This document shows, piece after piece, positions 1 through 51,079 of a DNA stretch of 64,000 nt; positions within the stretch are counted from its first letter, which is position 1, and every line of letters begins with the position of its first letter. The notes below the pieces were generated by a model. The model was not told where the DNA came from and did no database searches. It worked only from the letters and a program-made list of their open reading frames with translations. The position numbers and the translations under genes were made by a program. This stretch comes from a virus, in IMG/VR virus record IMGVR_UViG_3300027801_002650, positions 16,840 through 80,839 of that record; one strand, written 5' to 3'.

Positions 1-2
1 AT

Positions 3-1125: not shown

Positions 1126-1886
1126 TCGGTTTTATCAATATAGTCAAATGTCTTATTGAAGATTATAAGGTGGATAACGCATTTGATCTAGAACAGCTGA
1201 TTCTCTTAAAACGAGAACATAATATGCAATTCTCGAATATGGGGGAGCCACCTACAAAGTTCGTTTATTATGACGAAGACCTAAAAGAATATAATATGAT
1301 ATTCATGTATCTCAGAGAAGCAGATATGATTGAGCAATATGTTGATTCCGTTAAGGATTCAGGGCAAACCAAATTTCCAGAAGAGTATATTGTTTCAAGA
1401 TATGGCTCAATGTCAGACCTGAATGTTGCGATTAGACCTATCGACATTCCTGACACTCTTATTTCAAAGATGAGGGCAACTTTAGAGTTAGGGCACATTA
1501 GATGGTCTGACAAAAAGAGATTTGCTAGCATTGATATTTCTACCGAAGATAAGTTTGTTAAGTGGATAAATACTAATGAGATAGATAAGATTTGGACAAC
1601 CATACCAGAGGAATTGGATGGTGAAAACAAAGCAGAGCAATTTGAAATCTGGATTAGTCAAAAAGGAATAGCACTCAACGTTGAGTATCAAGTGAATGCT
1701 GATAACGATAACGTGAGATATTCTAAAGACCAAGAACAAATATCAGATGTGGTTCCTGCTGGTCTTAGTTTATACCAGGACGAACTCAAACAAGTTATTG
1801 ATCAAGCAAAAACTGCTAAATTTTCTGATGAATTCTTTTCAGCATTAACTGGCGCAGGTGCAACAGTAGACAAAACACAATTTTGA
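1122..1886 (+). CDS. Protein of unknown function within the radical-SAM cluster
   Basis: The 254-residue protein starts at the ATGA overlap with the adenylating enzyme, so the two are likely translationally coupled. It is acidic, has no cysteines, no signal peptide and no membrane segment. The C-terminal 50 residues (PAGLSLYQDELKQVIDQAKT and a Gly/Ala-rich end) look helical. No catalytic motif was recognised. Its position between an adenylating enzyme and the first radical-SAM gene suggests a partner or substrate of one of them, but that is inference only. Confidence 0.7.
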   Translation: MIGFINIVKCLIEDYKVDNAFDLEQLILLKREHNMQFSNMGEPPTKFVYYDEDLKEYNMIFMYLREADMIEQYVDSVKDSGQTKFPEEYIVSRYGSMSDLNVAIRPIDIPDTLISKMRATLELGHIRWSDKKRFASIDISTEDKFVKWINTNEIDKIWTTIPEELDGENKAEQFEIWISQKGIALNVEYQVNADNDNVRYSKDQEQISDVVPAGLSLYQDELKQVIDQAKTAKFSDEFFSALTGAGATVDKTQF

Positions 1887-2962
1887 GCAAATATTTTTGT
1901 GCATCACCTTTTACCAGAATGACCAGGTCTCCGAATGGTGACCTGAGAACCTGCGTGTATTCCCCACCTTTAGAGGGAGAATACACAAACATTCTTAGTG
2001 CTTTCAAGTCTGACGAAATGGAGACAATTCGCCAAGAGATGAGAGACGGTAAACGAAGACCTGAATGTGAGTGGTGTTATTTTTATGATGAATCCAACCA
2101 ATATTCCTGCCGACAAGACATAAACGAACGATACCCAGAACCACCATCTACACAGTTACGAGAATTAGATTTTGCTGCCTCAAACAAGTGCAACTACATT
2201 TGCGTAACTTGTGACGAGTCTGCTTCATCTGGATGGGAACAGAGAAACAAAGAATTTAGATTTGCTGCTAATGAAATCAAACATAAATTACCTGCTGACC
2301 TATCAGGGATTAGCAATCTAAAACAATTAACAATCATGGGTGGTGAGCCAACTATTGAACCTTACTACACTAATGAGTTCTGGGATTTGATCGAGAGTAA
2401 GACAGACAAGAACTTGTGGTTCCAGATGGTCACAAACTGCTCAGCATTCCCCAGCAAAAGATGGATGGATTTTCTCTCGGGTCTTGAGCATGTCAGCATA
2501 GGAATATCGTTAGACGGCATAGGAGAAGTCGGAGAGTTCTGCCGACTAGGTTGGAAAGAACGACCTTGGCGCAAAAACTTTTTGAAATGGATGAAGTTTT
2601 TTGATAGAGGATATGAGCTTGGGTCAAGGCATGACGGACCTTGGATAAATATTGTACTTAGCAATTATAATATATTATTCAGTGCTAAGACTTTGAAATA
2701 CGTTTCAGAGTTTGGTATGAGGCATCGAGTCATGCTCACAACTGCCTTTGAACCTGACTACCTCTGTCCTGCATATCTTCCCGATAAATTTAAAGAAGAA
2801 ATAGAGTTAATGGAGTATTTTGACGACAATCATCGAGACTTTGTTATTGACGTGTTAAAAACAGGTGAGTACAGCGAACCTGTGTATAAGAAGTTCCAAG
2901 ACTACACTAAATATTTAAACGCATTTGTGAAAGTACCAGAACCATGTCTACATTTTGTATGA
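1883..2962 (+). CDS. Radical-SAM protein with N-terminal twitch-like domain (rSAM 1)
   Basis: The 359-residue protein starts with TTG inside the TTGA stop overlap of the previous gene. An N-terminal twitch-like cysteine domain has FCASPF (C6), C24, and a CxxC pair at C62/C65 in the context MxxGxxxPxCxxC. The radical-SAM cluster motif CX3CX2C follows at C103, C107 and C110, then MGGEPT at about 152-157, which contacts SAM. The C-terminus has the conserved SxDGIGEVGEFCR stretch. The pattern matches the family called twitch domain-containing radical SAM protein (N_twi_rSAM). Such enzymes cleave SAM with a 4Fe-4S cluster to start radical chemistry; the substrate is not known. It is closely similar to the genes at 2944 and 5874. 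Confidence 0.92.
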   Translation: MSKYFCASPFTRMTRSPNGDLRTCVYSPPLEGEYTNILSAFKSDEMETIRQEMRDGKRRPECEWCYFYDESNQYSCRQDINERYPEPPSTQLRELDFAASNKCNYICVTCDESASSGWEQRNKEFRFAANEIKHKLPADLSGISNLKQLTIMGGEPTIEPYYTNEFWDLIESKTDKNLWFQMVTNCSAFPSKRWMDFLSGLEHVSIGISLDGIGEVGEFCRLGWKERPWRKNFLKWMKFFDRGYELGSRHDGPWINIVLSNYNILFSAKTLKYVSEFGMRHRVMLTTAFEPDYLCPAYLPDKFKEEIELMEYFDDNHRDFVIDVLKTGEYSEPVYKKFQDYTKYLNAFVKVPEPCLHFV

Positions 2963-4092
2963 GTCCATTCGTAAGAATGACGCAATGGTGGAATGGTAAT
3001 CTTAATACCTGCACTCATTATGGTGAAATGTCTGGTGACGGGACTGACATTGAGAAACAGGTGTTCATACCCGATGGTAAATATGATAGCCTCGCAGAAG
3101 CATTCGAGGGTGAAGAGATGGAAGACCTCAGACAGAAAATGCTGAACGGCAAGAAGCTCGAGGGATGCCGTTACTGTTATCATTTAGAATCTTTAGGACT
3201 CATGAGTTTGAGGGAGAGCATCAACTCCTGCTATGATGTTTCTGCAAGAAAAAAAGAGTTGAAGGAAATAGAGATTTATCCTTCAAACAAATGCAACTTT
3301 AGATGTACTATCTGTAACTCAGAAGCAAGCAGTGTATGGGGGAATACCACAATGCAAACTCCTGGAAGAATTCCTTCAAATCCATATATGCTTGACGGAC
3401 TTGGTGATATGAATTTGATTACTATCTCAGGTGGTGAGCCAATTATCATGCCAGATTATGATGGAGACTTCTTTGAGGGCAGGTCTACGAAAATGTTCAC
3501 GATGGCAACCAATAACTCAGTATTTCCTAGTGACCAGTTCTTTGAGTTCTTGGAAAGGTGTGAGGATATTTTAATATATCTTAGTTTGGACGGTATAGGG
3601 GAAGTTGGAGAATGGTGTCGCAAGGGTTTGAAGATGTCGAGATTTGAGAGGAATATGTACAAATGGCAACACTGGTTTGAGAATAGTAAGTTTGAGAGAA
3701 AGGGTAATCCTGATTACAAACTGCGACCACCTTACCTTACTGGTCTGAGAATAATGTATGTGATGCAACCATATAATATTCTAAATATGTATGAGACTCT
3801 AGAATGGGCAGAAGAACACGACATTATTTTAGATATGAGAAATTGCTACTCGCCAGAAAAATTGAATGTTGCCTACTTGCCCGATAGTATTAAGAATGAT
3901 ATTATGCAGGAAACAAAATTCTACAACGACGACCATAGAGAGTTCGTTGAGAAAATACTTGCATCTGCTAAATATGATGAGAGCAGGACAAGAGACTTTA
4001 TAGAGTATACAAAATACTTGATGGTGCTTGACGAAATACCTAGTCAATCATTGGAGATTTATAAAAAATGTTTGGATATAATCTCAGATTGA
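2944..4092 (+). CDS. Radical-SAM protein with N-terminal twitch-like domain (rSAM 2)
   Basis: The protein has 382 residues and overlaps the previous gene by 19 bases. The N-terminal domain has FCMSPF (C5), C23 and the pair C75/C78 in MLNGKKLEGCRYC. The radical-SAM motif is at C117, C121 and C124, followed by SGGEPI. It shares the DGIGEVGEWCRKGLK stretch and the C-terminal YLPDxxK and EYTKYL segments with rSAM 1 and rSAM 3, which marks the three as recent paralogs. Substrate unknown. Confidence 0.92.
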   Translation: MSTFCMSPFVRMTQWWNGNLNTCTHYGEMSGDGTDIEKQVFIPDGKYDSLAEAFEGEEMEDLRQKMLNGKKLEGCRYCYHLESLGLMSLRESINSCYDVSARKKELKEIEIYPSNKCNFRCTICNSEASSVWGNTTMQTPGRIPSNPYMLDGLGDMNLITISGGEPIIMPDYDGDFFEGRSTKMFTMATNNSVFPSDQFFEFLERCEDILIYLSLDGIGEVGEWCRKGLKMSRFERNMYKWQHWFENSKFERKGNPDYKLRPPYLTGLRIMYVMQPYNILNMYETLEWAEEHDIILDMRNCYSPEKLNVAYLPDSIKNDIMQETKFYNDDHREFVEKILASAKYDESRTRDFIEYTKYLMVLDEIPSQSLEIYKKCLDIISD

Positions 4093-4673
4093 ATGTCGAT
4101 GATCATGTCTGGACTAACTCCAAAGAACTGTACAGTCCAGAAAGGCATGTCATCATTGACAAATACAGAGACGGGTGCACAAGAGTTCCTTGTTGCCGGA
4201 ATGACAATATAGGATTAGAAAACTCTAGTTGGCCATTGCCTGTATTTATTATTTGGGCAAATGGTATTTATGTCAACCATCTCATGTGTTTTATGACTGA
4301 GGATGAAGCATTACGTTGGGTGCAACAGTGGATTAGAGAGGAAAAGGGTAAAAACTGTGGGAGATGGAACTTCCCCCACATCCACGCACATAACGTATTC
4401 GGCAATGATGTTTCATCTTTTTTACATCCTGTCTTTGATGGAGGCAAATTTATCGAGACAGTGACAGATGGACAGATAACAAATGAAAACTTCTGGAATG
4501 GTGGAACAATGGAAACATATCAAAATCACACCATTTTTAAAACAGATGCGGTAAACTCCTTTGATGTTATGGATCATTGGTTTGGTGTAGAAACCTACGC
4601 CAATGAGTTTATCGAATCCTTTTATGATGAACCCTGGCCAAGCGATTGGGATCTTGATTTGGTAATGAGTTAA
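4068..4673 (+). CDS. Protein of unknown function in the radical-SAM cluster
   Basis: The 201-residue protein overlaps the preceding gene by 25 bases. It is rich in Trp, His and aromatic residues. It has a DGCTRVPCC cluster near residue 36 that faintly recalls the DGxxxxCC turn of twitch domains, but there is no CX3CX2C, so it is not a radical-SAM enzyme. It also has FPHIHAH and an acidic end. No family recognised. It could be a partner or a substrate-binding protein. Confidence 0.7.
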   Translation: MFGYNLRLNVDDHVWTNSKELYSPERHVIIDKYRDGCTRVPCCRNDNIGLENSSWPLPVFIIWANGIYVNHLMCFMTEDEALRWVQQWIREEKGKNCGRWNFPHIHAHNVFGNDVSSFLHPVFDGGKFIETVTDGQITNENFWNGGTMETYQNHTIFKTDAVNSFDVMDHWFGVETYANEFIESFYDEPWPSDWDLDLVMS

Positions 4674-4680
4674 AAAAATT

Positions 4681-5166
4681 ATGGAATTTCAGTTTGAAGT
4701 AAGAAGCAAAATATACCCAAGCAAAACCTGGGACACCACCGACCAGTTCTGTATCGATCATGATCATTCTATACCAATGCATTATCAAAAACGCATACTT
4801 GAAATAGCATCGGAGTATGGCGTTTACAGAAAAATAGAAATGCTAAACGACGGCAAGGGCATGAAGTTGTATGCTCGTCTACCTTCCCCAACAATGTTTT
4901 CTGAATGGCTAGCCAAAAGAATAGACTATTTCTATGAGGCAAAGAACTCAGAAACAGAAGAAGACATGGAGGGAGAGATCCCTTATTTTCCAAACTCTTT
5001 TCAAAAACGATGCTGGCATTTGTCAAACTTCTCTCCCTTGATTCCCTACGATATTTTTTGGGAGAATGTGCATAAAGCATTTGACCTCGCAGAACACGAA
5101 TGCAAACTCAACTTAGACACTTTCAATGTTACAGCAAAAAAGGCATATCATGACCTTTATTCCTAA
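4681..5166 (+). CDS. Protein of unknown function in the radical-SAM cluster
   Basis: The 161-residue protein starts with ATG seven bases after the previous stop, the widest gap in the plus block. It has IDHDHSIPMHYQKRILE near the N-terminus and a WHLSNFSPLIPYDIFWENVHKAF helix-like stretch later. No cluster-binding motif, membrane segment or known catalytic motif was seen. It ends inside the next gene, so translation is probably coupled. Function unknown. Confidence 0.65.
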   Translation: MEFQFEVRSKIYPSKTWDTTDQFCIDHDHSIPMHYQKRILEIASEYGVYRKIEMLNDGKGMKLYARLPSPTMFSEWLAKRIDYFYEAKNSETEEDMEGEIPYFPNSFQKRCWHLSNFSPLIPYDIFWENVHKAFDLAEHECKLNLDTFNVTAKKAYHDLYS

Positions 5167-5902
5167 AGAAGATTTTGAAAGACTGCATCATCAAAACATC
5201 ATACCAACAGATATGAAAATAAATGTAGAAGATTTTAAGTCTGAGATCAAAAATTATGACCAACACTTTTCCCAATGGGGAGACAAGTTCACAGACCTGG
5301 CTAGACTTGGATTGCCGTTGGTCAATAAAAATGGTAAACTTGGCAACAATCCCGAACCTGCTTGTTGGCCATTGGACAGATGGAACTTTGTTAACTTGGG
5401 ATACGAAGATACGGACGAAGGATTTACAGAGTTCTATAAAAATATACAGGAAAATATATTGTCTGACAAACTTGAACTTGAAATAGATTTTACTGAACCA
5501 ACAAAAGCATTGGATATGAAATCCCTTGATCCTCTGAATGACATCAAAGAATACATGGTTCGTAGTTGTATTCTTAAATGGGACACCCGTGCCCACTTCA
5601 AACCTCACTATGATACGTGGCACCCTGTTAGATGGCTGAGACTTTGGGGTACAACAGATCCCGACAGCATGTATTTAAGATTTAGAGCAGAAGACGATAA
5701 TACAGATGGCTTTTGTATGTGGAATGAAACCAACCAAGAGCATGAAATTTATAAAGCAGAAGAGAACATTGAAGCAGGTAGACTGTACCTGATGAATACG
5801 TTGAAATGGCATGACGCATTTGCCTTCAACGATAATGTACACCAGTTCTTTATAGCATTAAATATTGATTCTTATGAACACATTTTGCATGGCACCATTT
5901 AG
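5150..5902 (+). CDS. 2OG/Fe(II)-oxygenase-like protein (Asp/Asn beta-hydroxylase-like)
   Basis: With the ATG at 5150 the protein has 250 residues and a 17-base overlap with the gene before; an in-frame ATG at 5126 would add eight residues. A facial-triad-like HxD is at H153 and D155 in HFKPHYDTWH, with a basic RWLRLW following, and a distal His at H231 in NVHQFFIALN. This order, and W/R-rich text between, fits the cupin-fold aspartyl/asparaginyl beta-hydroxylase-like oxygenases, which hydroxylate a substrate using Fe(II), O2 and 2-oxoglutarate. A substrate cannot be named. It sits between two unknown genes and rSAM 3, so it may oxidise the same molecule. Confidence 0.6.
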   Translation: MTFIPKEDFERLHHQNIIPTDMKINVEDFKSEIKNYDQHFSQWGDKFTDLARLGLPLVNKNGKLGNNPEPACWPLDRWNFVNLGYEDTDEGFTEFYKNIQENILSDKLELEIDFTEPTKALDMKSLDPLNDIKEYMVRSCILKWDTRAHFKPHYDTWHPVRWLRLWGTTDPDSMYLRFRAEDDNTDGFCMWNETNQEHEIYKAEENIEAGRLYLMNTLKWHDAFAFNDNVHQFFIALNIDSYEHILHGTI

Positions 5903-6941
5903 CAGGATGACTGGCGGTCCCGAAGGGACTTACCGTACCTGTTGCTATCACCCTCCTATCGAAAAAAGATACACTAATGTCCTTGATGCATTTGAGGGTG
6001 GGGAGATGCAAATCCTGAGGCAGAGAATGCTGGATGGTGAGCACATCAAAGAATGTGAATCTTGCTACTATTATGAATCCATAGGCGAACTGTCCCAGAG
6101 ACAGGTCATCAACCAAGAGCATACGTACATAAAAGAATATCATTTAGAAGGTCTTGAAATTTCCTTCAACAACAAATGTAACTTTGCATGTGTCACCTGT
6201 AAACCTGAGTCGAGTAGTATATGGGAAGATCGTGTGGGCAAGATAGACAAAATCACACCTGATTATTCCGGAGTTGATTTTAGCAAACTGAAACATCTGT
6301 CGTTTACGGGAGGTGAACCAACTATACAAAGGGAGTTCTCTCCTAAGTTTTTTGCGATGCTCGATGAGCAAGTAAAATACGATACATTATTTTTTTCAAT
6401 GAACACAAACTGCTCCAAGTTTGTTCATAGACCTTGGGTAGAGTTTATTAATAAGTTGAAGAGAGTAATGATAATGACAAGCATCGATGGGATAGGAGCT
6501 GTCGGAGAATGGGTCAGGTTAGGATTGAAGATGGATATCTGGGAAAAGAATGCTCTAAGGTGGAAAGACCTCTTGAAAGACAATAAAGAATATACTTACG
6601 GAGACATGACAAGTGGTGTCTGGTCAAATTTTGTAATGACAAACTATAACGTGTTCAACGTAGATGAAACTGAAAAATACCTTGCGTCACTTGGTATTCG
6701 GATGAGGAAAACAAATTGTTTTAGTCCAGAGTATCTTAGTCCAGAATATTTGCCTGACGAAATCAAAAAGGAATTACCTGCTAACGATTTTGTGCAGAAC
6801 ATTTTGAATGCAAATGAATATAATGAAAAACACTGCAAGGAATTCATGGTGTATACAAAATACCTTGAGACATTTGCTCCTGCACCTGAAGAAGCAAAAT
6901 TTGTCTATCGAAAATTAGAAGAATACTATGTGGCCAATTAG
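5874..6941 (+). CDS. Radical-SAM protein with N-terminal twitch-like domain (rSAM 3)
   Basis: The ATG at 5874 gives 355 residues beginning MNTFCMAPF, matching the paralog at 2944, so it is preferred to an upstream TTG at 5865. The twitch-like cysteines are C5, C23/C24 and C61/C64. The radical-SAM motif is at C102, C106 and C109, and TGGEPT follows. The DGIGAVGEWVRLGLK stretch and YLPDEIK end are shared with rSAM 1 and 2. It overlaps the gene before by 29 bases and the SPASM enzyme after it by 14 bases, forming a twitch/SPASM pair. Confidence 0.92.
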   Translation: MNTFCMAPFSRMTGGPEGTYRTCCYHPPIEKRYTNVLDAFEGGEMQILRQRMLDGEHIKECESCYYYESIGELSQRQVINQEHTYIKEYHLEGLEISFNNKCNFACVTCKPESSSIWEDRVGKIDKITPDYSGVDFSKLKHLSFTGGEPTIQREFSPKFFAMLDEQVKYDTLFFSMNTNCSKFVHRPWVEFINKLKRVMIMTSIDGIGAVGEWVRLGLKMDIWEKNALRWKDLLKDNKEYTYGDMTSGVWSNFVMTNYNVFNVDETEKYLASLGIRMRKTNCFSPEYLSPEYLPDEIKKELPANDFVQNILNANEYNEKHCKEFMVYTKYLETFAPAPEEAKFVYRKLEEYYVAN

Positions 6942-7881
6942 CATTGAAAAAGCAAAAAGATTGCAGATAGAAATAACAACATTCTGTAATGCTGCGTGTC
7001 CTTCGTGTGAGCGAGCCAACTATAAAGTGGGGACTATTTACAAGAGGCACCTGAACTCCATACACGTAAGTCTAAAACAACTGCAGAAATGGCTACCTTT
7101 GGAAGAAATGAAATCAATGGAAGTCTTCCATTTATGCGGTAACATAGATGAGCCAACGTTAAATCCTGAGATTTTTGAAATTTGTGAATGGCTAGAGCAG
7201 TATGCTCGAGTACATATTTCGACTAACGGAGGAACAAAGAACAAGGAATTTTGGAAAAAACTGGCGACTCTAAAAAACACGTCAGTTATCTTTGGTATCG
7301 ATGGTCTCGAAGACACGAACCATATCTATCGCAAGAATGTACGATGGGTAAAACTGCACGACAACTATAGTACTTATATAAAACACGGTGGACTAGCCTT
7401 CTGGCAGTTTATTATATTTGAACACAACAAGCACCAATTAGAGGATGCCAGAGAAAAATCTATAGAAGAAGGATTTGCATCTTTCAATACTATTCACTCT
7501 ATGCGAGAAAACCATGAGGTGGAAGCAGTTGCAAATGAAAGAGTCAAAGAAACATGCGTCAAATGTAAAGCAACATACGATAATGATGATTTGGGCGATG
7601 TAGGTTTTTATATAGACGTGAGGGGAACTGTTTGGCCTTGTTGTTGGATGGCAACAAGTTGGGTATCCAATAACGATATTGCACCAAAAACAAAACACTT
7701 TGGGCACTTCTTAGCTCATAATTTAAACTACGATACGTTGCAAGACATTATCAGTGGTGACCTGTTTACATACTTATGGGAGAACCTGGGTCAGTTCGAT
7801 ATATGTAACCAAAAATGTAAAGAAAACATAACCGATACCATTGTCTGGAATGCAGACTGGGAAAATATTATGAAAAGGTAA
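6928..7881 (+). CDS. Radical-SAM/SPASM protein (rSAM 4)
   Basis: The 317-residue protein has the radical-SAM motif CNAACPSC at C20, C24 and C27. In place of GGE it has CGNIDEPTLNP. STNGG and FGIDGLEDTNHIYR follow, with WQFIIFEHN in the middle. The C-terminal SPASM region has ETCVKC, DVRGTVWPCCW at about 231-239 and a final CNQKC. SPASM domains bind auxiliary Fe-S clusters and are typical of enzymes that modify peptides, proteins or small scaffolds. The gene is closely related to those at 14830, 17791 and 20307. Substrate unknown. Confidence 0.9.
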   Translation: MWPISIEKAKRLQIEITTFCNAACPSCERANYKVGTIYKRHLNSIHVSLKQLQKWLPLEEMKSMEVFHLCGNIDEPTLNPEIFEICEWLEQYARVHISTNGGTKNKEFWKKLATLKNTSVIFGIDGLEDTNHIYRKNVRWVKLHDNYSTYIKHGGLAFWQFIIFEHNKHQLEDAREKSIEEGFASFNTIHSMRENHEVEAVANERVKETCVKCKATYDNDDLGDVGFYIDVRGTVWPCCWMATSWVSNNDIAPKTKHFGHFLAHNLNYDTLQDIISGDLFTYLWENLGQFDICNQKCKENITDTIVWNADWENIMKR

Positions 7882-7883
7882 AT

Positions 7884-8843
7884 ATGATTTATGATGAATG
7901 GAATAATTTAGGCGAGGTCATAGTTGGTACCTCATATGAGGATTGCACTCTTGCTGGACTCGAGCAAATCGTCGATGAGACCAATGAAGATCTGGATACT
8001 CTTGCTAAAATGCTCGAGAATGAATGGTGCACTGTTCACAGACCTAAACAACCTGAGTTTGCTCAAACTAAAGAAGGTGGCGTGGAAATCCATCACCCCA
8101 TCATGCCGAGAGATTCCTTTGGATTTTTCGGGGACAAAATGATACAAACTCAAAACCTTAAAGAATCCAAGCAAGCAGAACTTGGCCTCTACGAACCTAT
8201 TGTGAACTCACATATGTTGAGTCGTAGATATGGATTATGGAGAATGCCGCACCCCTCAATCGATCCTGATCATGGGGTAGATGTATTATGGAGTGCGTCT
8301 AATCTTATGAAATGCGGGTATGATATATTGTACACCCAACCTGTGGAAAGAGATGAAACTAACGGGATTGGAACTCAAGCAGGACTGGACTGGATTGCTA
8401 CCAGACTTGGTACATATAATTTTATTGAAGTGCCGACGGGTGGTCATGTAAACAGCAAACTAACTCTTCTCAAGCCAGGTCTTCTAATGACACACAACGA
8501 AAAGTTTATTCCTAAAGAACTCAGAAAGTGGGATAAGATAATCGTTGAACAAATCAAAAAACCAAGATTCTCTGATACGTACACTCAAACATATTTGAAG
8601 AACTTTAAAAATTGGAAAGATTGGACTGGAAAACGGGACTCGATTCTAGAAATAAACTGCCTTGTTATCCGTCCTGATAAGATTATCACTACTGCCCAGA
8701 GTAAAGATAATATTAAGAAAATGGAAGACAAAGGAATTGAAGTGGTTATATGGGATCATAGACACAGATACTTTTGGGATGGTGGCGCACATGATTGCAC
8801 ACAAGATACTGCTCGCGGAGGCGAAAGAAAGAAATGGCGTTAA
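7884..8843 (+). CDS. Glycine-amidinotransferase-like enzyme (guanidino-modifying superfamily)
   Basis: The protein has 319 residues. It opens with EWNNLGEVIVGT, as amidinotransferases do, then PRDSFGFFGD (PRD at 75-77), GGHVNSKLTLLKPG with H188, and a C-terminal GGAHDCTQDTARGG with C305. These correspond to the Asp/His/Cys active site of the superfamily that includes glycine amidinotransferase (amidino transfer from arginine), arginine deiminase and DDAH. The HVN and GGxHxCT details look closest to the amidinotransferase branch. It has an AAGG sequence upstream of its ATG as a ribosome site. It suggests the pathway product carries a guanidino group or consumes arginine. Transferase versus hydrolase activity cannot be told here. 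Confidence 0.82.
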   Translation: MIYDEWNNLGEVIVGTSYEDCTLAGLEQIVDETNEDLDTLAKMLENEWCTVHRPKQPEFAQTKEGGVEIHHPIMPRDSFGFFGDKMIQTQNLKESKQAELGLYEPIVNSHMLSRRYGLWRMPHPSIDPDHGVDVLWSASNLMKCGYDILYTQPVERDETNGIGTQAGLDWIATRLGTYNFIEVPTGGHVNSKLTLLKPGLLMTHNEKFIPKELRKWDKIIVEQIKKPRFSDTYTQTYLKNFKNWKDWTGKRDSILEINCLVIRPDKIITTAQSKDNIKKMEDKGIEVVIWDHRHRYFWDGGAHDCTQDTARGGERKKWR

Positions 8844-13914: not shown

Positions 13915-14857
13915 AATGCCTTTCACCCATTCTTTTATAGATGGGGAAACTATGAAACCTTGCTGTATGTTTGAAGGCGAGGGAGACGTACGGGAACAGT
14001 TTCTAGCAGGCATAAAACCTGAAGGATGCAAACCTTGTTTCGACAAAGAGGAACGTGGAGGAACCAGTTCGAGACAGTATTACAATCAACGATATGACTT
14101 TTTGCCTCTGGACAAAGTCAGAACCTTTGACCTGAGAATCGATGATGTATGTAATCTAAAGTGTGTTATGTGTGGACCTGATCAGTCTACCAAATGGAGA
14201 GAAGACATTGAGATATTCGATGAGTTTGTTGGTAGACCACTGTGGAACAGGAAAATACCACTGCCAGATTTATCTGATGCATTAGAAATAAGCATCCTTG
14301 GTGGAGAACCATTCTATATGAGAACTGCTGAGAACATATTGAAAAAGCAGTCCCGAGACACCCGCATTATTTTGAACACAAATGCTTGCATCGATGCAGA
14401 CAACAAACTGCTGGGCATATTAAAAGAGTTTGATGTTGTTGAAATCGTAATATCGATTGACGGGTACAAGCAAGTAAACGATTATATTCGTTTCCCATCA
14501 GAGTGGGATAAGTTTGAGTCTGGTATAGATATTATTTTTTCCCTCGACAATATTGAATATAAACCATTTAACACAACAGTCAGTTGCCTAAACCTGCCAG
14601 ACCTTGATAATATCAAAAACTACACAAAGCAATACTCAGACTACAAACACTACATAAATTATCTTACCGACCCAGACTTTTTGAGTATAAATGCTTTGCC
14701 ACCGAAAGTCATAGAATACTGTGATGTTGACGTAGACTATGAGTTCGACAAAAAGTTGAATCAAAAGATGAGAGCATACTTGAGTAAGTTAGACAAGAAA
14801 AGAAATACAAATAGCAAAAGGACATTACCATGGTGCTGGATCGACCATTCAGAATAG
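13904..14857 (+). CDS. Radical-SAM protein with N-terminal twitch-like domain (rSAM 8)
   Basis: The 317-residue protein begins MLCKMPF (C3), with DGETMKPCC (C20/C21), and C42/C45 in FLAGIKPEGCKPC followed by GGTSSRQ. The radical-SAM motif is at C83, C87 and C90, then GPDQSTKW and LGGEPF. ISIDGYKQVNDYIRFPSEW is the conserved later segment. It is compact, with little sequence past the core. It overlaps the following SPASM enzyme by 28 bases, the second twitch/SPASM pair. Confidence 0.91.
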   Translation: MLCKMPFTHSFIDGETMKPCCMFEGEGDVREQFLAGIKPEGCKPCFDKEERGGTSSRQYYNQRYDFLPLDKVRTFDLRIDDVCNLKCVMCGPDQSTKWREDIEIFDEFVGRPLWNRKIPLPDLSDALEISILGGEPFYMRTAENILKKQSRDTRIILNTNACIDADNKLLGILKEFDVVEIVISIDGYKQVNDYIRFPSEWDKFESGIDIIFSLDNIEYKPFNTTVSCLNLPDLDNIKNYTKQYSDYKHYINYLTDPDFLSINALPPKVIEYCDVDVDYEFDKKLNQKMRAYLSKLDKKRNTNSKRTLPWCWIDHSE

Positions 14858-15795
14858 AGTTTGAGATAAGTTCTCTATGTAATGCTCTCTGCTCAGGTTG
14901 TCAACGAACAATGATGGACAACAGGGGAAAGTACTACTACAAAGGAAATATTACCATAGACCAAATGACAGATTGGTTTGATGAGGTTGACTTGACTAAT
15001 GCCAAAATTAAACTGTGTGGTGTGTTAGGTGACCCGATTGTCAACCCTGACTGCTATGAAATATGTTCCTATTTGATGCTAGAGAAGAAAGTCAAAAGCA
15101 TAGAAATATCTACCAATGGTGGTATGAGATCATCAAAGTTTTGGACTCAGTTAGGCGAGTTATCAGCGATGAGCGGCAATCGTTTATATGTACATTGGTC
15201 AATAGACGGAGTTACCAAAAATGATTACAGAGAAAACGTAAACATCGACAAGGTCTGGGAAAACTTTCATACTTACTATAATGCTGGTGGTAAATGCATT
15301 TGGCAGTATATACATTTTGATTACAACGCAGACGAAATCCCTCTGGCAAAACAAAAAGCAAAAGAGTTAGGTGTTGAGTTAAAGATACGTGTCAGTTGGA
15401 GAAATACTGCTGATGCAGCAAAGTTTAAATCAAGCGAAGCACTAAAGATCGACGAAGACATATACGAGACAGTTGAGACTCGAGCACGCACGGGTGACTA
15501 TGAGGCAGCAAATATTGTTTGTCGACATCAGTTAGAAAATGAGCTGTTCGTTACATCAGAAGGCAGAATATGGCCTTGCTGTCATTTACAAGATGAACAG
15601 GTTGCAGGCAAAACTGACATACTAACAAAAGTTGGTTTAAAAAATGATCTACAGCAGTCAAAATTTTACGACATTATTCAGTCTGAGTGGTATGAAAAAA
15701 CACTGGCCGAGTCGTGGGAAAAATCACACCCTCTTCACCTACCCAGGTGCTATTTATCCTGTGGAGATTTTGCGAAAAGAAAAGTTATTAAATGA
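14830..15795 (+). CDS. Radical-SAM/SPASM protein (rSAM 9)
   Basis: The 321-residue protein has the cluster motif CNALCSGC at C17, C21 and C24, CGVLGDPIVNP in the GGE position, STNGG and HWSIDGVTKNDYR. The SPASM region has a lone C before a 15-residue spacer, SEGRIWPCCHL at about 243-252, and a final CYLSC. It is closely related to rSAM 4, 11 and 13. Its last codons overlap the next ATG as ATGA, so it is probably coupled to the PLP-enzyme gene. Confidence 0.9.
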   Translation: MVLDRPFRIEFEISSLCNALCSGCQRTMMDNRGKYYYKGNITIDQMTDWFDEVDLTNAKIKLCGVLGDPIVNPDCYEICSYLMLEKKVKSIEISTNGGMRSSKFWTQLGELSAMSGNRLYVHWSIDGVTKNDYRENVNIDKVWENFHTYYNAGGKCIWQYIHFDYNADEIPLAKQKAKELGVELKIRVSWRNTADAAKFKSSEALKIDEDIYETVETRARTGDYEAANIVCRHQLENELFVTSEGRIWPCCHLQDEQVAGKTDILTKVGLKNDLQQSKFYDIIQSEWYEKTLAESWEKSHPLHLPRCYLSCGDFAKRKVIK

Positions 15796-16625
15796 TAGAT
15801 AGTCCCGAAAGAGAATACACATTAGACTGGTTGCAGTATGAAAGACAGCAACCAATGTACGATGAGAGCATCAATGATTTTTATGCTCGTATTTTTAAGG
15901 AAACTCCAGTTCACGCAAAAACTATTGACGTAGATTTTTTACATGCCTTTGACGAATGGTTGAGAAATCATCAGTTCAGCAGTTTTACAGGAATGGATGC
16001 ATTCCCTGTCAGGCATGTCATACAGGGTGTCACACATTACATCGACGACCTGTATCAGACATATGGTTCTTTGCAGATATTCAAAAATGATTATAAATAC
16101 CACTGGCGACTGAACAATGAAATAGAGTATGCTACTATCGATACCCTGGATAAAAGGCACCTACTTATATCAATGCCGTTTCCTTACTACGGTGATATAC
16201 ATCCTGGCATGTACACAATACTCGATGCGTGTTATGAAAAGGGAATCCCTGTGCATGTTGATGCTGCTTGGATTAGTTGCATACGCAATATTGATTTCAA
16301 TTTTGACCACCCTGCTATTCAGACTTTTGCTATCAGTTTAAGTAAAGGAGGCATAGGTGGTTGTCGAATCGGTGTGAGATATGCACGATGGACAACTGAA
16401 GGACCTATCACATTAATGAATAAGTTTAACATGAATCAACAACCACTGATGTGGATTGGAACACGTTTCATGAAGGAGTTTGGTCCAGAGTATTTTTGGA
16501 AAAAATATGAAAACAAATATAATCAAGTTCTTAAGGATTTCAAACTGCAACCATCAAAAGCAATACACCTTGCTATGAGCAACGGTAAACCTGTTGGTGT
16601 TCGATCACTGCTGAGGGCATTATGA
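15792..16625 (+). CDS. Short PLP-dependent fold-type-I enzyme (aminotransferase-like)
   Basis: The protein has 277 residues. IPVHVDAAW at 152-160 supplies D157, which fits the Asp that pairs with the pyridine nitrogen of PLP. FAISLSKGGIGGCRIG at 179-194 supplies K185 as the likely Schiff-base lysine and R192 as the phosphate-binding arginine. These three in this order and spacing are the signature of aspartate-aminotransferase-like enzymes. The usual length is about 400 residues, so much of the N-terminal arm and small domain is missing. Both ends overlap neighbours as ATGA. A transamination or lyase step is likely; the substrate is unknown. Confidence 0.72.
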   Translation: MIDSPEREYTLDWLQYERQQPMYDESINDFYARIFKETPVHAKTIDVDFLHAFDEWLRNHQFSSFTGMDAFPVRHVIQGVTHYIDDLYQTYGSLQIFKNDYKYHWRLNNEIEYATIDTLDKRHLLISMPFPYYGDIHPGMYTILDACYEKGIPVHVDAAWISCIRNIDFNFDHPAIQTFAISLSKGGIGGCRIGVRYARWTTEGPITLMNKFNMNQQPLMWIGTRFMKEFGPEYFWKKYENKYNQVLKDFKLQPSKAIHLAMSNGKPVGVRSLLRAL

Positions 16626-17833
16626 GTTGTATTCTACCTTGGATCAATTTTGGTACAAATATTTACGGGCGACCGAGAGTCTGTGGTTACTCTAACATAA
16701 ATGCACAATGGAAGCATATGTTTGAGAAAAGAGGTTTACCATGGCCACCTACTAAAATTGAAGACACCCCAAAGGAAATCCTTGAAAGTGACTTTGCCAA
16801 AGAGTTCCAGACTTGGAATGGTAAGTTAGAAAAGCATGGTGTAAAAGAGCAGTGGAACAACATTTATTTTAGAGAGATTCGTGAAACATTTTTGAATGGT
16901 GAGTGGCCAGCAAACTGTGGCAGATGTAAGCATGTTGAAGAGTTGGGTGGCAAGTCAAAACGCATAGACGAAAATGATATGTGGCATGACGAAAATCTGA
17001 TCGTAGAAACAGAATATCCAAAGCACATCGATGTAAGAACTGGTACAGTCTGCAACTTTAAATGTATTCATTGTAGTCCAAATGTTAGCTCGAAATGGGT
17101 TGAGGACAAGGAAGTCGCCATAAAATATGGAACCGAATACGTAGAAAATGATAATACTTGGATAGCAAAAGATAATGACTTTTGGAATCAACTTGACATT
17201 TCTCAAATAAAAAGGTATAATTTCTTAGGTGGTGAATCGTTTTATAATAAAAGACATAACGAGTTTATCAAAAAACTGAATGAAAGCGAGTATGCGAATG
17301 AAATAGAAATCGCTTACGTCACCAATGGTTCGTTCAGATTTGAGAATATGGAAAACTTCAAAAAGGTAAGACTGAGATTGTCTGTTGACTGTGTAGAAAC
17401 AGCAGGGGAATATTTTCGTTATGGATTAAAATGGGATGATTGGTGTGAAAACATTAAAAAATTTCCGTCAAACTTTGACACATCCTTTCAATGGACTTGC
17501 AGTAATGTAAGCATGTTCTACTTAGTAGATACCTACAAGTTATTGCGCAAACAGTTTCCTGACATTAGATTTTTGTTTGAGAATCATGTAACAGAACCCT
17601 ACTATATGTCAGCACAAAATCTGCCCAGTAGCATCAAAGAAAAAATCAGTGACGAAATTGATTTTGAAATAGATCCTTTTTACGTTAATTATATGTTTAA
17701 AAAAGATGGATGGTCAGAAAAAGGTGAAACTTTTATTAACTATCTAAACGATTTAGATAAAGCAAGAAAAACCAATTGGAGAAAAAGTCTGTGTGGTCTA
17801 GAGAAAGCATTGAGTGGATTGACGTTGAGCTAA
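16622..17833 (+). CDS. Radical-SAM protein with N-terminal twitch-like domain (rSAM 10)
   Basis: The 403-residue protein begins MSCILPWINFG (C3), with C21, and C99/C102 in FLNGEWPANCGRC followed by GGKSKR. The radical-SAM motif is at C144, C148 and C151, then SPNVSSKW and LGGESF. LSVDCVETAGEYFRYGLKW is the conserved later segment. It starts at an ATGA overlap with the PLP-enzyme gene and overlaps the following SPASM gene by 43 bases, a third twitch/SPASM pair. Confidence 0.91.
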   Translation: MSCILPWINFGTNIYGRPRVCGYSNINAQWKHMFEKRGLPWPPTKIEDTPKEILESDFAKEFQTWNGKLEKHGVKEQWNNIYFREIRETFLNGEWPANCGRCKHVEELGGKSKRIDENDMWHDENLIVETEYPKHIDVRTGTVCNFKCIHCSPNVSSKWVEDKEVAIKYGTEYVENDNTWIAKDNDFWNQLDISQIKRYNFLGGESFYNKRHNEFIKKLNESEYANEIEIAYVTNGSFRFENMENFKKVRLRLSVDCVETAGEYFRYGLKWDDWCENIKKFPSNFDTSFQWTCSNVSMFYLVDTYKLLRKQFPDIRFLFENHVTEPYYMSAQNLPSSIKEKISDEIDFEIDPFYVNYMFKKDGWSEKGETFINYLNDLDKARKTNWRKSLCGLEKALSGLTLS

Positions 17834-18714
17834 CGTCATTTTGTAATATAGACTGCCCAGGTTGTTTCCGGCAAGTCAAAAGGGATAAGGTTGATCATCT
17901 TCTAAACAAAAGCATGATTACTTTAGATCAGATTAAAACATGGCTGACATACAAGAACTTTCCTAACGCAAAACTGGTCAACTTTTGTGGATCGATTGAC
18001 GAACCTACCTTACATCCTGATATGTTGGCAATCTTAGACCACCTTGACGGCATAGACATTAACATATCATCGAATGGCTCAACTAAGACAGAAAAGTTTT
18101 GGGGCGAGTTAGGAAAAAGAAAAATATCTGTTTTCTTTGGTCTTGACGGCATAGACCAGGAGTCACTTGAAAAATACAGGATAGGTGCAAACTTCAAAAA
18201 AGTGCAGGCAAATTGGAGAGCATTCATTAAGGCAGGTGGCAAAGCAACGTGGCAGTTTATAGCATTTGATCACAATGAGCACTTGATGGATGACGCCAAA
18301 CGCATGGCAAAAAAAGAAGGATTTACTGACTTCAGATTGATTTATTCTCATAGAAATGAGAACCAAGAGTCTAAGAAACTACAAAGAAAAGAAGAACAGA
18401 CCATTGTATGTAAATATGGGGAGCAAAATAGAATCTTTATTAGTCACACAGGTGTGATGCTCCCTTGTTGCTTTTTGAACTCAGAGTTCCTACAGTCTTA
18501 TGCTACAAAAGAATACCATACTGACTTTCAACAACTGTTCAAAAATACAGGTGACGTGCTGAACAACAGTTTGAAATATGCTGAGCCAGACGAAATCATT
18601 GACGGGGAATTGTGGAAAGAAATCGTTTCGTCGTGGGATCACAAACCAATATCAAGGTGTGAAACTACGTGCAAGCAAGCAAAGCAAGATGTATTTCTTG
18701 GAGAGACATTATGA
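17791..18714 (+). CDS. Radical-SAM/SPASM protein (rSAM 11)
   Basis: A GTG at 17791 is chosen because GGAG lies nine bases upstream and because the resulting VWSRESIEWIDVEL aligns with the start of rSAM 4; a TTG at 17776 would add five residues. The 307-residue protein has CNIDCPGC at C18, C22 and C25, CGSIDEPTLHP in the GGE position, SSNGS and FFGLDGIDQESLEKYR. The SPASM part has a lone Cys, SHTGVMLPCCFL at about 218-228 and a final CETTC. It is the third of four close SPASM paralogs. Confidence 0.89.
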   Translation: MWSRESIEWIDVELTSFCNIDCPGCFRQVKRDKVDHLLNKSMITLDQIKTWLTYKNFPNAKLVNFCGSIDEPTLHPDMLAILDHLDGIDINISSNGSTKTEKFWGELGKRKISVFFGLDGIDQESLEKYRIGANFKKVQANWRAFIKAGGKATWQFIAFDHNEHLMDDAKRMAKKEGFTDFRLIYSHRNENQESKKLQRKEEQTIVCKYGEQNRIFISHTGVMLPCCFLNSEFLQSYATKEYHTDFQQLFKNTGDVLNNSLKYAEPDEIIDGELWKEIVSSWDHKPISRCETTCKQAKQDVFLGETL

Positions 18715-19442
18715 AGATAAGTGATTATCGTGAATATGCTAATCGTCTATCTGCATTACGAGAGAAATTGGCCGACATTGAAAAGGTCTTTTACAATGTT
18801 GAAAAAGAACAACGGGCGACGAAGTATGCTCAGGTAGGCAGGTGGATAGAGGGCAATCTGTCACAAGATTATTCACAGTCCTGGGAAGACTCAATGTCTG
18901 CTCAACAGTACGAATCTAAAAAATGGATGGTCGATGAAATAGCAAATCTTAAACCAAAGTTTGAATACTCCGAACCCTGCCACATTGAGGTTGTTGGTTC
19001 TTGGTTCGGGTGGCCATTGATGGAATACATTGATCATGCCTTTCCCAATATAAAACAGGTAGACCTGTATGATAAGGATGAACTGTGCCATCCTGTCATG
19101 GCTCAATACAAAAATCACTTTGCCCCTAAATATTCAGTCCACCAATTTGGTGATTGGTTTGAAAGAACTGATAAAAGAAGAAGGCAGGTGATCATTAATA
19201 CTTCTGGTGAACACATGTCTAACATTTCTGCGAACAAAGAAATGTTCAAAGGAAATCCTCTTATTATCATAATGTCAAATGATTATTTTGATGGAGATGG
19301 CCACACTCACTGTGTCCCTGACGTAGAGGAACTTGTGCGTCAACAAAATCTCGGGGAAACCTATTACACTGGTACACGATCAATGCAGACTTATAACAGA
19401 TTCATGGTGATTGGGAGAATGCATGCTGAAAGTACTGACTGA
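18711..19442 (+). CDS. Class I SAM-dependent methyltransferase-fold protein
   Basis: The ATG at 18711 forms an ATGA overlap and gives 243 residues. HIEVVGSWFGW at about 91-101 fits motif I of the class I fold, and VDLYDKDE about 17 residues later supplies the acidic end of strand 2. Later VIINTSGEHMSN, then IIIMSNDYF and RFMVIGR, fit strands 4 to 7 of a family of small bacterial methyltransferases. The helical first 80 residues may be a cap. It would methylate a pathway intermediate; the target is unknown. The gene at 23102 resembles its C-terminal half. Confidence 0.6.
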   Translation: MKISDYREYANRLSALREKLADIEKVFYNVEKEQRATKYAQVGRWIEGNLSQDYSQSWEDSMSAQQYESKKWMVDEIANLKPKFEYSEPCHIEVVGSWFGWPLMEYIDHAFPNIKQVDLYDKDELCHPVMAQYKNHFAPKYSVHQFGDWFERTDKRRRQVIINTSGEHMSNISANKEMFKGNPLIIIMSNDYFDGDGHTHCVPDVEELVRQQNLGETYYTGTRSMQTYNRFMVIGRMHAESTD

Positions 19443-20325
19443 CAAGGGACTGAAGACAGCAACAGTCAGTCAATTAAAACAGAATACAAACTTTAAGGGA
19501 TGGGTTTGCCAACCAAATCAATACGTTATTGACGTAGAGAAATGGACAGTTAGGCAAACAGTTTGCGGACACCCTGACGAACAATCTATTGGAGAGTTTG
19601 TCCCTATCAAAGAAACCATCTGCCCCAACGACAACTGTTTTTGTGGCAATGATATAGAAATGAGAAAAGGAAAGACACACGATTTTCTTAAACTAATCAA
19701 ACATGCCCCCGATAAGATTGACCCGTACAGAGGTGAGAAGATACTCGCCATCGATAATAAAAACAGAGTCAACGTCAACTTTTATACTGAAAAGAAATGC
19801 AATTATAGTTGCTCATACTGTGAACCTGAGAATCATTCATCTACTAAATCCATTGACATCGAAAAATACAAAGAGGCATGGAATACTGTAAATCCAAAAA
19901 ATGTCTCTACCATAAATATATCTGGTGGCGAGCCAACACTCAACAAAAAATATATTGACTTTGTAAAATGGTTGAGCGAACACAATCCTTACGCACACAT
20001 ATCGACATCTACAAATGGATCTAAGTCTGCCGATTATCTTAGGCATCTTAATACATACTCTCACCTAGCGATAAGCATACATTTTGAATTTATTACAGAA
20101 TCCTACATAAAAAAGTTACATAGGTTTCTTTCACACAGAAACGAAAACAAAAAGTCAGTAAGATTAAAATGCATGTTGCATCCAGAAAAAATCCAACAAG
20201 TAAAAAGTTTTATGGACGGATTCAAGGGATATCCGGACATCCAAGTTTCGGTCACTCCTTTGTGGACACCTGGTACAAAAGATATTATGGAATATGAGGA
20301 AGAAGTATGGAATTTAGTGACATAA
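19423..20325 (+). CDS. Radical-SAM protein with N-terminal GWxC cysteine module (rSAM 12)
   Basis: From the ATG at 19423, preceded by GGGAG, the protein has 300 residues; a TTG at 19411 would add four. The N-terminal module has FKGWVC (C29), TVCG (C48) and ICPNDNCFCG (C67, C72, C74). The radical-SAM motif follows at C126, C130 and C133, then SGGEPT. The protein ends soon after the core. The module aligns with the C-terminal one in rSAM 7 (GWxC, N-x-Y, TxCG, CPxxxCxCG), so the domain order is swapped. It overlaps the methyltransferase gene by 20 bases and the next SPASM gene by 19. Confidence 0.88.
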   Translation: MLKVLTDKGLKTATVSQLKQNTNFKGWVCQPNQYVIDVEKWTVRQTVCGHPDEQSIGEFVPIKETICPNDNCFCGNDIEMRKGKTHDFLKLIKHAPDKIDPYRGEKILAIDNKNRVNVNFYTEKKCNYSCSYCEPENHSSTKSIDIEKYKEAWNTVNPKNVSTINISGGEPTLNKKYIDFVKWLSEHNPYAHISTSTNGSKSADYLRHLNTYSHLAISIHFEFITESYIKKLHRFLSHRNENKKSVRLKCMLHPEKIQQVKSFMDGFKGYPDIQVSVTPLWTPGTKDIMEYEEEVWNLVT

Positions 20326-21359
20326 GGCAAGTACATTTTGAACCATCACAGGGATGCAATGCTTCTTGTCCTATGTGTGACAGGAATCAAAATGGTGGGG
20401 CAGTTAATCATCACCTTACAAATGCTACGTGGACTGCTGAAGAGTTCATGAACAAGATAGACTTTGAGTTTATCAAGAAAACCAACTTCTGGTATTTTTG
20501 TGGGAACCACGGGGATCCACATATGTGTGAGGACCTACCCAGAATTTGTGCGTGGATGAAACAGAAAAATCCAGGGATTCGTTTACTTACCACAACAAAT
20601 GGTGGAGCACGTGATGTGTCTTGGTGGGAAGAACTTGCACAATACTCAGAGGTCAACTTCTCCGTCGACGGACTAGAGGACACAAATCATCTCTATCGTC
20701 AAGGTGTGAGGTGGCAAAGGGTTGAGGAAAATATGGTAGCATTTTGTGAGGCAGGTGGTTTCGCGAAATGGACATTCCTTGTCTTTCGTCACAACGAGCA
20801 TCAGGTTGAGGATGCTAGAAGATGGGCTACGGCACTTGGCGTAAAAGATTTTATTGTTAAAAAGTCAGGCAGGTATATCAACACTGCTACCCTGACTGAG
20901 AAGGATGGCCACCAAGCAGTCAACAAAAAGGGTGAAACGAAACAATACCTCGAGCAACCTTTGAATCCCAAATATCAGAACAAGGCACTGCCCCAGTACA
21001 AGGTGCTAGAGAAAAAGTATGGAACTTTTGATAAATACCTTGAGGTGTGTAAAATAGACTGTAAAGCAGAAGACAAAAAAGAAATCTATATCTCAGCAGA
21101 GGGATACACTTTTCCTTGTTGCTGGTTGGGTGGGCAACCTCTTAAGTGGTGGCGTAAACAAAAATCTGGTGATGTACATGATATGATTGGTGACTACGAC
21201 CTGATAAACATAAAGAAGACACCCCTGAAAGAGATCATAACGGGTGGGTTCTTTAACCGAGTACAGGAATCTTGGACTGGTGACAGACTCAAGACCTGTG
21301 CGTTAAAGTGTAACTCCGGACAAGATAACTACGATCCTTTTTCAGCACAATGGCAGTAA
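20307..21359 (+). CDS. Radical-SAM/SPASM protein (rSAM 13)
   Basis: The 350-residue protein has CNASCPMC at C17, C21 and C24, CGNHGDPHMCED in the GGE position, TTNGG and FSVDGLEDTNHLYRQGVRW, which is nearly identical to the same stretch of rSAM 4. It has an extra charged insert before the SPASM region. The SPASM part has EVCKIDC, SAEGYTFPCCWL at about 263-272, and CALKC. Substrate unknown. It is flanked by two GWxC-module radical-SAM genes. Confidence 0.9.
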   Translation: MEFSDIRQVHFEPSQGCNASCPMCDRNQNGGAVNHHLTNATWTAEEFMNKIDFEFIKKTNFWYFCGNHGDPHMCEDLPRICAWMKQKNPGIRLLTTTNGGARDVSWWEELAQYSEVNFSVDGLEDTNHLYRQGVRWQRVEENMVAFCEAGGFAKWTFLVFRHNEHQVEDARRWATALGVKDFIVKKSGRYINTATLTEKDGHQAVNKKGETKQYLEQPLNPKYQNKALPQYKVLEKKYGTFDKYLEVCKIDCKAEDKKEIYISAEGYTFPCCWLGGQPLKWWRKQKSGDVHDMIGDYDLINIKKTPLKEIITGGFFNRVQESWTGDRLKTCALKCNSGQDNYDPFSAQWQ

Positions 21360-22459
21360 AATTCTCACAAACTGACTTTACCAAAATCCCTTGGGACGAT
21401 ATTGAGATGGTGGGGCAATGGACGATGCTCCATCGCGACCTATTCAATGTGTCGTGGTTGCTTGGTAGATACTGTAACTACTCCTGCAGTTATTGCTGGC
21501 CGTATGCTTCAACCAAAAAGAAAGATTGGAGATCGGAAGACCTCGTACTGCTTACTATTGAAGAAATCAAACGACAGGCAAGAGAACGAGGATTTAACTC
21601 GTTCCACTTCTCATTCTCTGGTGGAGAACCCACCGTAGTTCCTACTCTTATTCCTCTCCTAGACAACCTCCGTGAAGATATTGGAAACTGTAACTGGCTG
21701 TCTACACACCTTACCTCTAACATTTCACGGAAAATGAAATGGTGGGAGGAATATTGCCAACTAACTAAGGACTTTCATCGAGTATCAATCACAGCATCCT
21801 ACCATAAAGAGCATATCAATACTCCTGAAAAGAGAGCAGACTTTGCTGATAAACTTGAATATCTTCAGTCACAGGATGTGCAGGTAACGGTCAACTCAGT
21901 AATGATACCCGAGAGATTTGATCACCTCTGGGAAGACGCCAACTACTTCCATGAGAGGAAAATCAACGTGACGTTGAAACCTCAGTCAGATCCCACAGCA
22001 AGTTTTGTGGTTGATGGATACACTGATGAGATGATGAATATACTTCACAATGGTTTACCTCAGCAAGATTTCACTGAAAGAAAAAGGCAGGTTGTCAGAC
22101 CTACGTCAAAGTTCCCTCGCATGAAAGCGATTGACGGCCAACATTATCAGATTGAAATGCAGGACAAGGACGGGAAAACATGGCGACTTGACCAGGCAGA
22201 GAGGTTCAACTCCTTTGGTTTTAATAAGTTCAAAGGTTGGGACTGCTCATCAGGGTATCGTAGCATAATCATACGGGAACCTGACGGGTCGATCAAAAGA
22301 AGTTATAGCTGCTCGGACGAACCTTTGGGTTATATTAACAAAGGATTTAGATTATTTGATTCTCCTATGCCTTGCATCACTGATTCGTGTGTATCGAGTG
22401 CTGACTCTAAAATACCAAAACGGAAACCCTCGTCAAACGCAGATCTATGGTCCAGCTGA
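21350..22459 (+). CDS. Radical-SAM protein with C-terminal GWxC cysteine module (rSAM 14)
   Basis: The 369-residue protein has CNYSCSYC at C42, C46 and C49 in GRYCNYSCSYCWP, then FSGGEPT. After the core, FKGWDC at about 294-299, REPDGSIKRSYSC, and PCITDSC make the auxiliary cysteine module, with a degenerate final CxCG. The core resembles rSAM 7 (LGRxCxYxCSYC). It is the last radical-SAM gene of the run and overlaps the first glycosyltransferase-like gene by 13 bases. Confidence 0.9.
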   Translation: MAVKFSQTDFTKIPWDDIEMVGQWTMLHRDLFNVSWLLGRYCNYSCSYCWPYASTKKKDWRSEDLVLLTIEEIKRQARERGFNSFHFSFSGGEPTVVPTLIPLLDNLREDIGNCNWLSTHLTSNISRKMKWWEEYCQLTKDFHRVSITASYHKEHINTPEKRADFADKLEYLQSQDVQVTVNSVMIPERFDHLWEDANYFHERKINVTLKPQSDPTASFVVDGYTDEMMNILHNGLPQQDFTERKRQVVRPTSKFPRMKAIDGQHYQIEMQDKDGKTWRLDQAERFNSFGFNKFKGWDCSSGYRSIIIREPDGSIKRSYSCSDEPLGYINKGFRLFDSPMPCITDSCVSSADSKIPKRKPSSNADLWSS

Positions 22460-40368: not shown

Positions 40369-40398
40369 TTTATTCTCCTGTAAGTTTTAAAAAGTAAT

Positions 40399-40428: not shown

Positions 40429-40429
40429 A

Positions 40430-51067: not shown

Positions 51068-51079
51068 ACCAGATATATC

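Follow-up and report, generated by a model that had tools for sequence, protein, structure and literature searches.

The window analyzed here, a whole stretch of 64,000 nucleotides, comprises bases 16840–80839 of an 80,839-base viral record (IMG/VR record IMGVR_UViG_3300027801_002650) and carries 14 radical S-adenosylmethionine (radical-SAM) genes within a single island of a T4-like phage; positions below are those of the window. The island includes 35 genes over 29 kb, all on one strand, and extends from window −4476 to 24662, that is to say, it starts at record base 12363, approximately 4.5 kb 5′ of the window start, in the upstream part of the record (L001). At both borders the strand flips and T4-like structural genes begin. 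The left flank contains the terminase, the sheath, and the head–tail adaptor phrog_211, and the right flank contains a VrlC-like gene followed by baseplate wedge genes. The original prediction, made from the sequence alone, had placed the block at 1883–22459; the 14 radical-SAM genes do lie there, and the island proved to be longer. As that prediction described, the genes are co-oriented and mostly overlapping. The radical-SAM genes, by open reading frame (ORF), are:

1883..2962, + strand: ORF24, N-twitch radical SAM (PF04055; NF033640 186 bits)
2944..4092, + strand: ORF25, N-twitch radical SAM (PF04055; NF033640 183 bits)
5865..6941, + strand: ORF29, N-twitch radical SAM (PF04055; NF033640 194 bits)
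6928..7881, + strand: ORF30, radical SAM/SPASM (PF04055; PF13186 over cut-off)
9546..10583, + strand: ORF33, N-twitch radical SAM (PF04055 27.2 bits; NF033640 160.6 bits, under cut-off)
11349..12773, + strand: ORF35, N-twitch radical SAM, core triad (NF033640 392 bits; 52–88% identical in five other phage contigs)
12766..13914, + strand: ORF36, radical SAM with C-terminal GWxC module (PF04055)
13904..14857, + strand: ORF37, N-twitch radical SAM (PF04055 24.8 bits; NF033640 180.6 bits)
14830..15795, + strand: ORF38, radical SAM/SPASM-type (PF04055; PF13186 20.8 bits, just under cut-off)
16622..17833, + strand: ORF40, N-twitch radical SAM (PF04055; NF033640 252 bits)
17776..18714, + strand: ORF41, radical SAM/SPASM-type (PF04055; PF13186 19.1 bits, under cut-off)
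19411..20325, + strand: ORF43, radical SAM with N-terminal GWxC module, residues 30–78 (PF04055 46 bits)
20307..21359, + strand: ORF44, radical SAM/SPASM, core triad (PF04055; PF13186 over cut-off)
21350..22459, + strand: ORF45, radical SAM with C-terminal GWxC module, core triad, the last radical-SAM gene (PF04055 52 bits)

Across the record, profile PF04055 has 14 matches and no more; every one lies inside this interval and is free of internal stops. In protein-by-protein hmmscan all 14 matched with E-values from 1e-13 to 3e-5; some score below the PF04055 gathering cut-off (29.5 bits) yet match significantly. Each protein has one intact CX3CX2C motif at the expected place, and the earlier caveat that most members might lack a radical-SAM core does not apply, since PF04055 is present in 14/14. 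The predicted split into 7 twitch, 4 SPASM, and 3 GWxC proteins was reproduced by the profiles and, for GWxC, in the sequence. The N-terminal twitch profile NF033640 (N_Twi_rSAM, cut-off 170 bits) was exceeded by 6 of the 7, all except ORF33. The SPASM profile PF13186 (cut-off 21.5 bits) was exceeded by ORF30 (22.6 bits) and ORF44 (22.3 bits), with ORF38 and ORF41 below it. The GWxC module is C-terminal in ORF36 and ORF45 and N-terminal in ORF43. A stand-alone GWxC protein of 108–181 residues exists at 13 loci, most of them beside a radical-SAM gene and often a short one (223–260 residues). Because such split gene pairs exist beside the fused forms (43% identity to the C-terminal half of ORF36), these sequences indicate that the module works together with the radical-SAM core. 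Separate GWxC genes (L085, L090, L093, L107, L108, L109, L148, L133, L141, and others) often lie directly 3′ of a short radical-SAM core gene.

Identity among the 14 paralogs does not exceed 41%, whereas it reaches 88% between them and their one-to-one counterparts in other phages. A recent amplification of radical-SAM genes was therefore rejected, and the paralogs look like separately kept steps.

A single-sequence search with ORF45 found 15 viral loci, and an alignment search found at least 548 confirmed viral stretches. The first 18 records carry up to 19 radical-SAM genes each, and 50 further records, which were chosen for carrying ORF45 and many of which are fragments, carry 5–24. ORF35 accompanies ORF45 in 45/50 of these records and ORF44 in 44/50. 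The conserved core consists of 3 radical-SAM enzymes, ORF35 (N-twitch), ORF44 (SPASM), and ORF45 (GWxC), with a changing accessory set. Within approximately 10 kb of the triad at 87 viral loci, the companions were short-chain dehydrogenase/reductase (SDR; 39), QueC-like (38), Asp hydroxylase (35), pyridoxal phosphate (PLP) enzyme (32), nitroreductase (27), methyltransferase (16), and B12-dependent radical-SAM (14) genes. These features, each paralog conserved separately and a constant core among varying accessory genes, are compatible with a pathway of stepwise tailoring. The "complete pathway for a complex product" of the original prediction stands as a real, conserved multi-enzyme tailoring set; its completeness does not, because no scaffold-building gene was seen and the gene set varies around a small core. 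No match to ORF45 was found among 50,697 phage records of the INPHARED collection, and no cultured relative of ORF44 or ORF45 was found. In the records G072, G071, and G034, several radical-SAM matches continue across a single in-frame stop codon (TAA or TGA), which would reflect a pseudogene, a frame artefact, or recoding. A-type Fe-S carrier-like genes lie near the radical-SAM clusters at L141:20647–21030 and L054:7045–7356, recalling an ocean phage described below (PMC5332604).

The triad also exists in bacteria. Of the 26 loci that a scan of 84,980 genomes revealed, 21 belong to Bdellovibrionota-type metagenome-assembled genomes (MAGs); the other 5 (L054, L055, L064, L072, and L079) resemble phage contigs binned into MAGs and were left out of the bacterial count. 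At several bacterial loci the triad is compact and lies amid housekeeping genes (S49 peptidase, MoxR, HPPD, and HgmA) with no phage genes. Its neighbors include glycosyltransferase 2 (GT2)-like genes at 10/21 loci and methyltransferase-like genes at 8/21. In an even draw, ORF45 was present in 12/192 Bdellovibrionota genomes, some of which were seeds, compared with 1/299, itself a seed, in the phylum of G020. In a tree of 110 ORF45 sequences, built by a quick method and containing a few long branches, bacteria and phages are parted by one change (SH-aLRT 94). Among the bacterial loci, the neighborhood of the triad contains no recurring family of small precursor-like ORFs, the feature sought for a ribosomally synthesized and post-translationally modified peptide. 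A recurring protein of 63–74 residues (G007:60 and L064:11) was rejected as a precursor: it is unlike one and also forms the N-terminus of the larger G002:66.

It is extremely improbable that the island is chimeric through misassembly or brings unrelated genes together by chance. A contig from another sample (G003) is identical over a stretch that includes ORF45, the right junction, and the baseplate genes, and a relative (G004) is also syntenic over that junction at 36–81% identity; a chimera is rejected there, and the concern of the original prediction is settled for this side. No independent contig spans the left junction, and the identical contig L158 (2134 bases) ends inside the neck gene exactly at the border with the island. 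A chimera is unlikely on this side because the GC content is uniform (39.2% in the left flank, 38.9% in the island, and 41.2% in the right flank). In addition, the order of the block from the halogenase-type gene to ORF35 is largely kept in phage contig G002. The end of L158 at the border perhaps stems from island variation in the population. In contig L159, whose neck gene is 84% identical, a different island lies at this place, and its 504-residue protein (L159:1039–2553) is a homolog, 28% identical, of the halogenase-type ORF20.

According to Pfam, the island genes upstream of the window are, in order, a carbamoyltransferase, a protein without assigned family, an Asp/Asn β-hydroxylase, a nitroreductase, a small protein, and a Trp-halogenase family protein (ORF20). 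ORF20 matches RebH and PrnA and keeps the catalytic Lys, with WxWxIP replaced by WTFEVN. The remaining genes of the island within the window are:

1..209, + strand: ORF21, small hydrophobic protein of 74 residues, beginning 15 bases before the window (74% identical in G002)
169..1125, + strand: ORF22, compact AMP-binding (adenylating) enzyme (PF00501, E 5e-15)
1122..1886, + strand: ORF23, no Pfam match
4068..4673, + strand: ORF26, no Pfam match (68% in G002)
4681..5166, + strand: ORF27, no Pfam match (66% in G002)
5126..5902, + strand: ORF28, oxygenase-like, no Pfam match (71% in G002)
7884..8843, + strand: ORF31, amidinotransferase-like (StrB1 1bwd, E 7e-12)
8795..9559, + strand: ORF32, SGNH-like by sequence, with GDSF and NHLSxxNH (48% in G002)
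10547..11359, + strand: ORF34, QueC-like PP-loop enzyme (PF06508 over cut-off)
15792..16625, + strand: ORF39, PLP aminotransferase-like, with the lysine motif SLSKGGIGG (NF006967 E 6e-5, far under its cut-off; 55–65% in other phage contigs)
18669..19442, + strand: ORF42, methyltransferase-fold-like (31% to Mosig_00090, annotated methyltransferase)
22447..23139, + strand: ORF46, GT-A-like by sequence, with DLDIH and DxD (58–78% in G002/G004; no Pfam match)
23102..23509, + strand: ORF47, small conserved protein
23506..24024, + strand: ORF48, GT-A-like by sequence, with FDLDL and DxD (relative in Pelagibacter phage Mosig; no Pfam match)
24000..24662, + strand: ORF49, GT-A-like by sequence, with IDIDLE and DxD, the last gene of the island (relative in Mosig; no Pfam match)

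The ortholog of ORF28 in G002 (G002:45) shows a weak likeness (25%) to Mosig_00081, annotated Asp_Arg_Hydrox. The 3 glycosyltransferase-like genes predicted at the end are recognizable by their DxD features; 4 small genes in fact follow the last radical-SAM gene, and none of them (ORF46–ORF49) has a credible Pfam match. The T4-like late promoter TATAAATA is not in excess and has 0 occurrences in L001, the part with the island start.

Several of these genes bear on a diffusible small molecule, for example one derived from an aminocyclitol or an amino acid and acting on competitors or host enzymes. The Trp halogenase, carbamoyltransferase, AMP-binding, PLP, and amidinotransferase-like genes would suit such a product, with StrB1 and SxtG as the closest matches to ORF31. 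However, the predicted amidinotransferase-like enzyme, while StrB1-like, lacks the catalytic Cys at its usual position: ORF31 reads HDCTQD, whereas every other aligned family member, that of Campylobacter phage CP220 included, has HCxTLD or a close variant, so its activity, as judged from the motif, is doubtful. Moreover, no scaffold-building gene (polyketide synthase, nonribosomal peptide synthetase, or precursor peptide) or exporter was recognized in the island, and near the triad the halogenase-type gene is rare (3/87 viral loci) and the carbamoyltransferase is present in 10/87. We consider a small molecule unlikely.

Hypermodification of the phage genome appears more improbable still. T4-like phages modify their DNA, and DNA hypermodification pathways can include radical-SAM and PLP enzymes as well as carbamoyl- and glycosyltransferases; a QueC-like gene is present here. 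Among 22 large records, which may be fragments, the thymidylate synthase/hydroxymethylase family was found in 9 and GTP cyclohydrolase I (FolE) in 14. Their lack of a match in 13/22 and 8/22, respectively, counts weakly against DNA as the substrate because of possible fragmentation, and the triad on bacterial chromosomes also speaks against it.

Beyond the right border of the island lie:

32306..38491, − strand: VrlC-like structural protein, the right border of the hypervariable locus (phrog_358, E 3e-172; 35% identical to part, 16% coverage, of the annotated VrlC of Mosig)
38533..53352, − strand: T4-like baseplate wedge genes (phrog_438, 17744, 219, and 261)

The terminase is 52–55% identical to cyanophage and pelagiphage (Pelagibacter phage) homologs. 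Some structural proteins in these phages are very long: a baseplate-wedge-like protein at window 40430–51067 (3,545 residues), G007:57102–71951 (4,949 residues), and G005:5302–20376 (5,024 residues).

Comparison with known systems revealed that many radical-SAM genes in one T4-like phage are already known (PMC2853527, PMC5332604, and PMC7029224), contrary to the original prediction, which knew of no described system with so many. (i) The T4-like Campylobacter phages CP220 and CPt10 carry 11–12 radical-SAM genes per genome, and an interchangeable module combines 5 of them with nucleotide-diphospho-sugar transferases and a glycine amidinotransferase (PMC2853527; 2010). The window differs in having 14 contiguous genes instead of 5; its SPASM-type members are only remotely similar (22–29% identity), and ORF45 is unmatched, so the genes are not orthologous to that module. 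(ii) The T4-like ocean phage TARA_ERS488813_N000010 has 12 radical-SAM genes and an A-type Fe-S carrier (PMC5332604; 2017); the text consulted presents them as Fe-S-related genes and does not describe a cluster, a core set, or bacterial relatives. (iii) The hypervariable host recognition cluster of pelagimyophages, between VrlC and neck gp14, carries glycosyltransferases and, in some genomes, radical-SAM cassettes (PMC7029224; 2020). The island occupies the same locus, with phrog_211 on its left and the VrlC-like gene on its right; that paper did not analyze the radical-SAM gene sets, and here the GC content is 40%. (iv) The cultured Pelagibacter phage Mosig EXVC030M has 3 MoaA-like genes and nitroreductase, aminotransferase, carbamoyltransferase, and methyltransferase genes between its tail and VrlC genes, but only 3 radical-SAM genes are annotated in the stretch compared, and neither ORF45 nor ORF44 has a match at 1e-5. 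As far as we found, novelty lies in the conservation of the triad, the co-occurrence of its members across the family, the radical-SAM counts of up to 24, and the chromosomal copies in Bdellovibrionota.

We propose that this T4-like phage may carry, at its hypervariable locus for host recognition, a modular tailoring pathway, with a probability of roughly 0.4 that this pathway modifies a cell-surface or virion polymer that is a glycan or bears glycans. ORF35, ORF44, and ORF45 would act as one unit; the changeable extra radical-SAM, SDR, PLP, PP-loop, β-hydroxylase, nitroreductase, carbamoyltransferase, and methyltransferase genes would add decorations, and the glycosyltransferase-like proteins would join or attach the product. 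The polymer would be a surface component of either infected cells or virions, is more likely a glycan than a protein, and may be altered during infection to change receptor recognition, with a possible role in recognition or exclusion. A glycan is suggested because the locus, a host-recognition cluster known for glycosyltransferases (PMC7029224), and the glycosyltransferase-like neighbors point there. The triad's presence in 44–45 of the 50 ORF45 records despite many fragments, its compactness on Bdellovibrionota chromosomes, and the absence of a recurring precursor-like small gene argue for this proposal. Three points weigh against it: the glycosyltransferase-like genes ORF46–ORF49 lie beside the triad in just 4–5/87 viral loci; relatives from freshwater have the triad close to ThyX- and MoxR-like genes, away from tail genes; and most structural neighbors of ORF35 and ORF44 modify peptides or proteins (SkfB, CteB, SuiB, and anSME).

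These closest folds would instead suit a scheme in which the enzymes modify numerous positions of a long, ribosomally translated protein, belonging to the tail fibre, the baseplate, or the cell surface, much as peptides are modified by SPASM/twitch maturases. Giant structural proteins adjoin the island, and side chains are also targets of the Asp/Asn β-hydroxylase and halogenase families. This fold likeness is biased, however, because the solved SPASM structures are mostly of peptide enzymes; the bacterial triad without phage genes, the freshwater placement, and the lack of a recurring small precursor gene also argue against a protein substrate, which we regard as possible but doubtful.

Returning to the tailoring of a surface polymer, we tentatively suggest a broader reading, in which a previously undescribed core of 3 radical-SAM enzymes, common to a very large number of uncultured T4-like phages and to predatory-type Bdellovibrionota, might build a polymer modification directed against Gram-negative victims, which phages would extend to as many as 24 radical-SAM enzymes. 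Radical-SAM enzymes perform chemistry beyond the reach of other enzymes, and reactions have been assigned for few of the phage-encoded ones. The fixed core narrows a 35-gene puzzle to just three enzymes that can be put to the test (ORF35, ORF44, and ORF45), and the substrate of the triad, once found, would reveal the use of a large share of the coding capacity in abundant uncultured phages.

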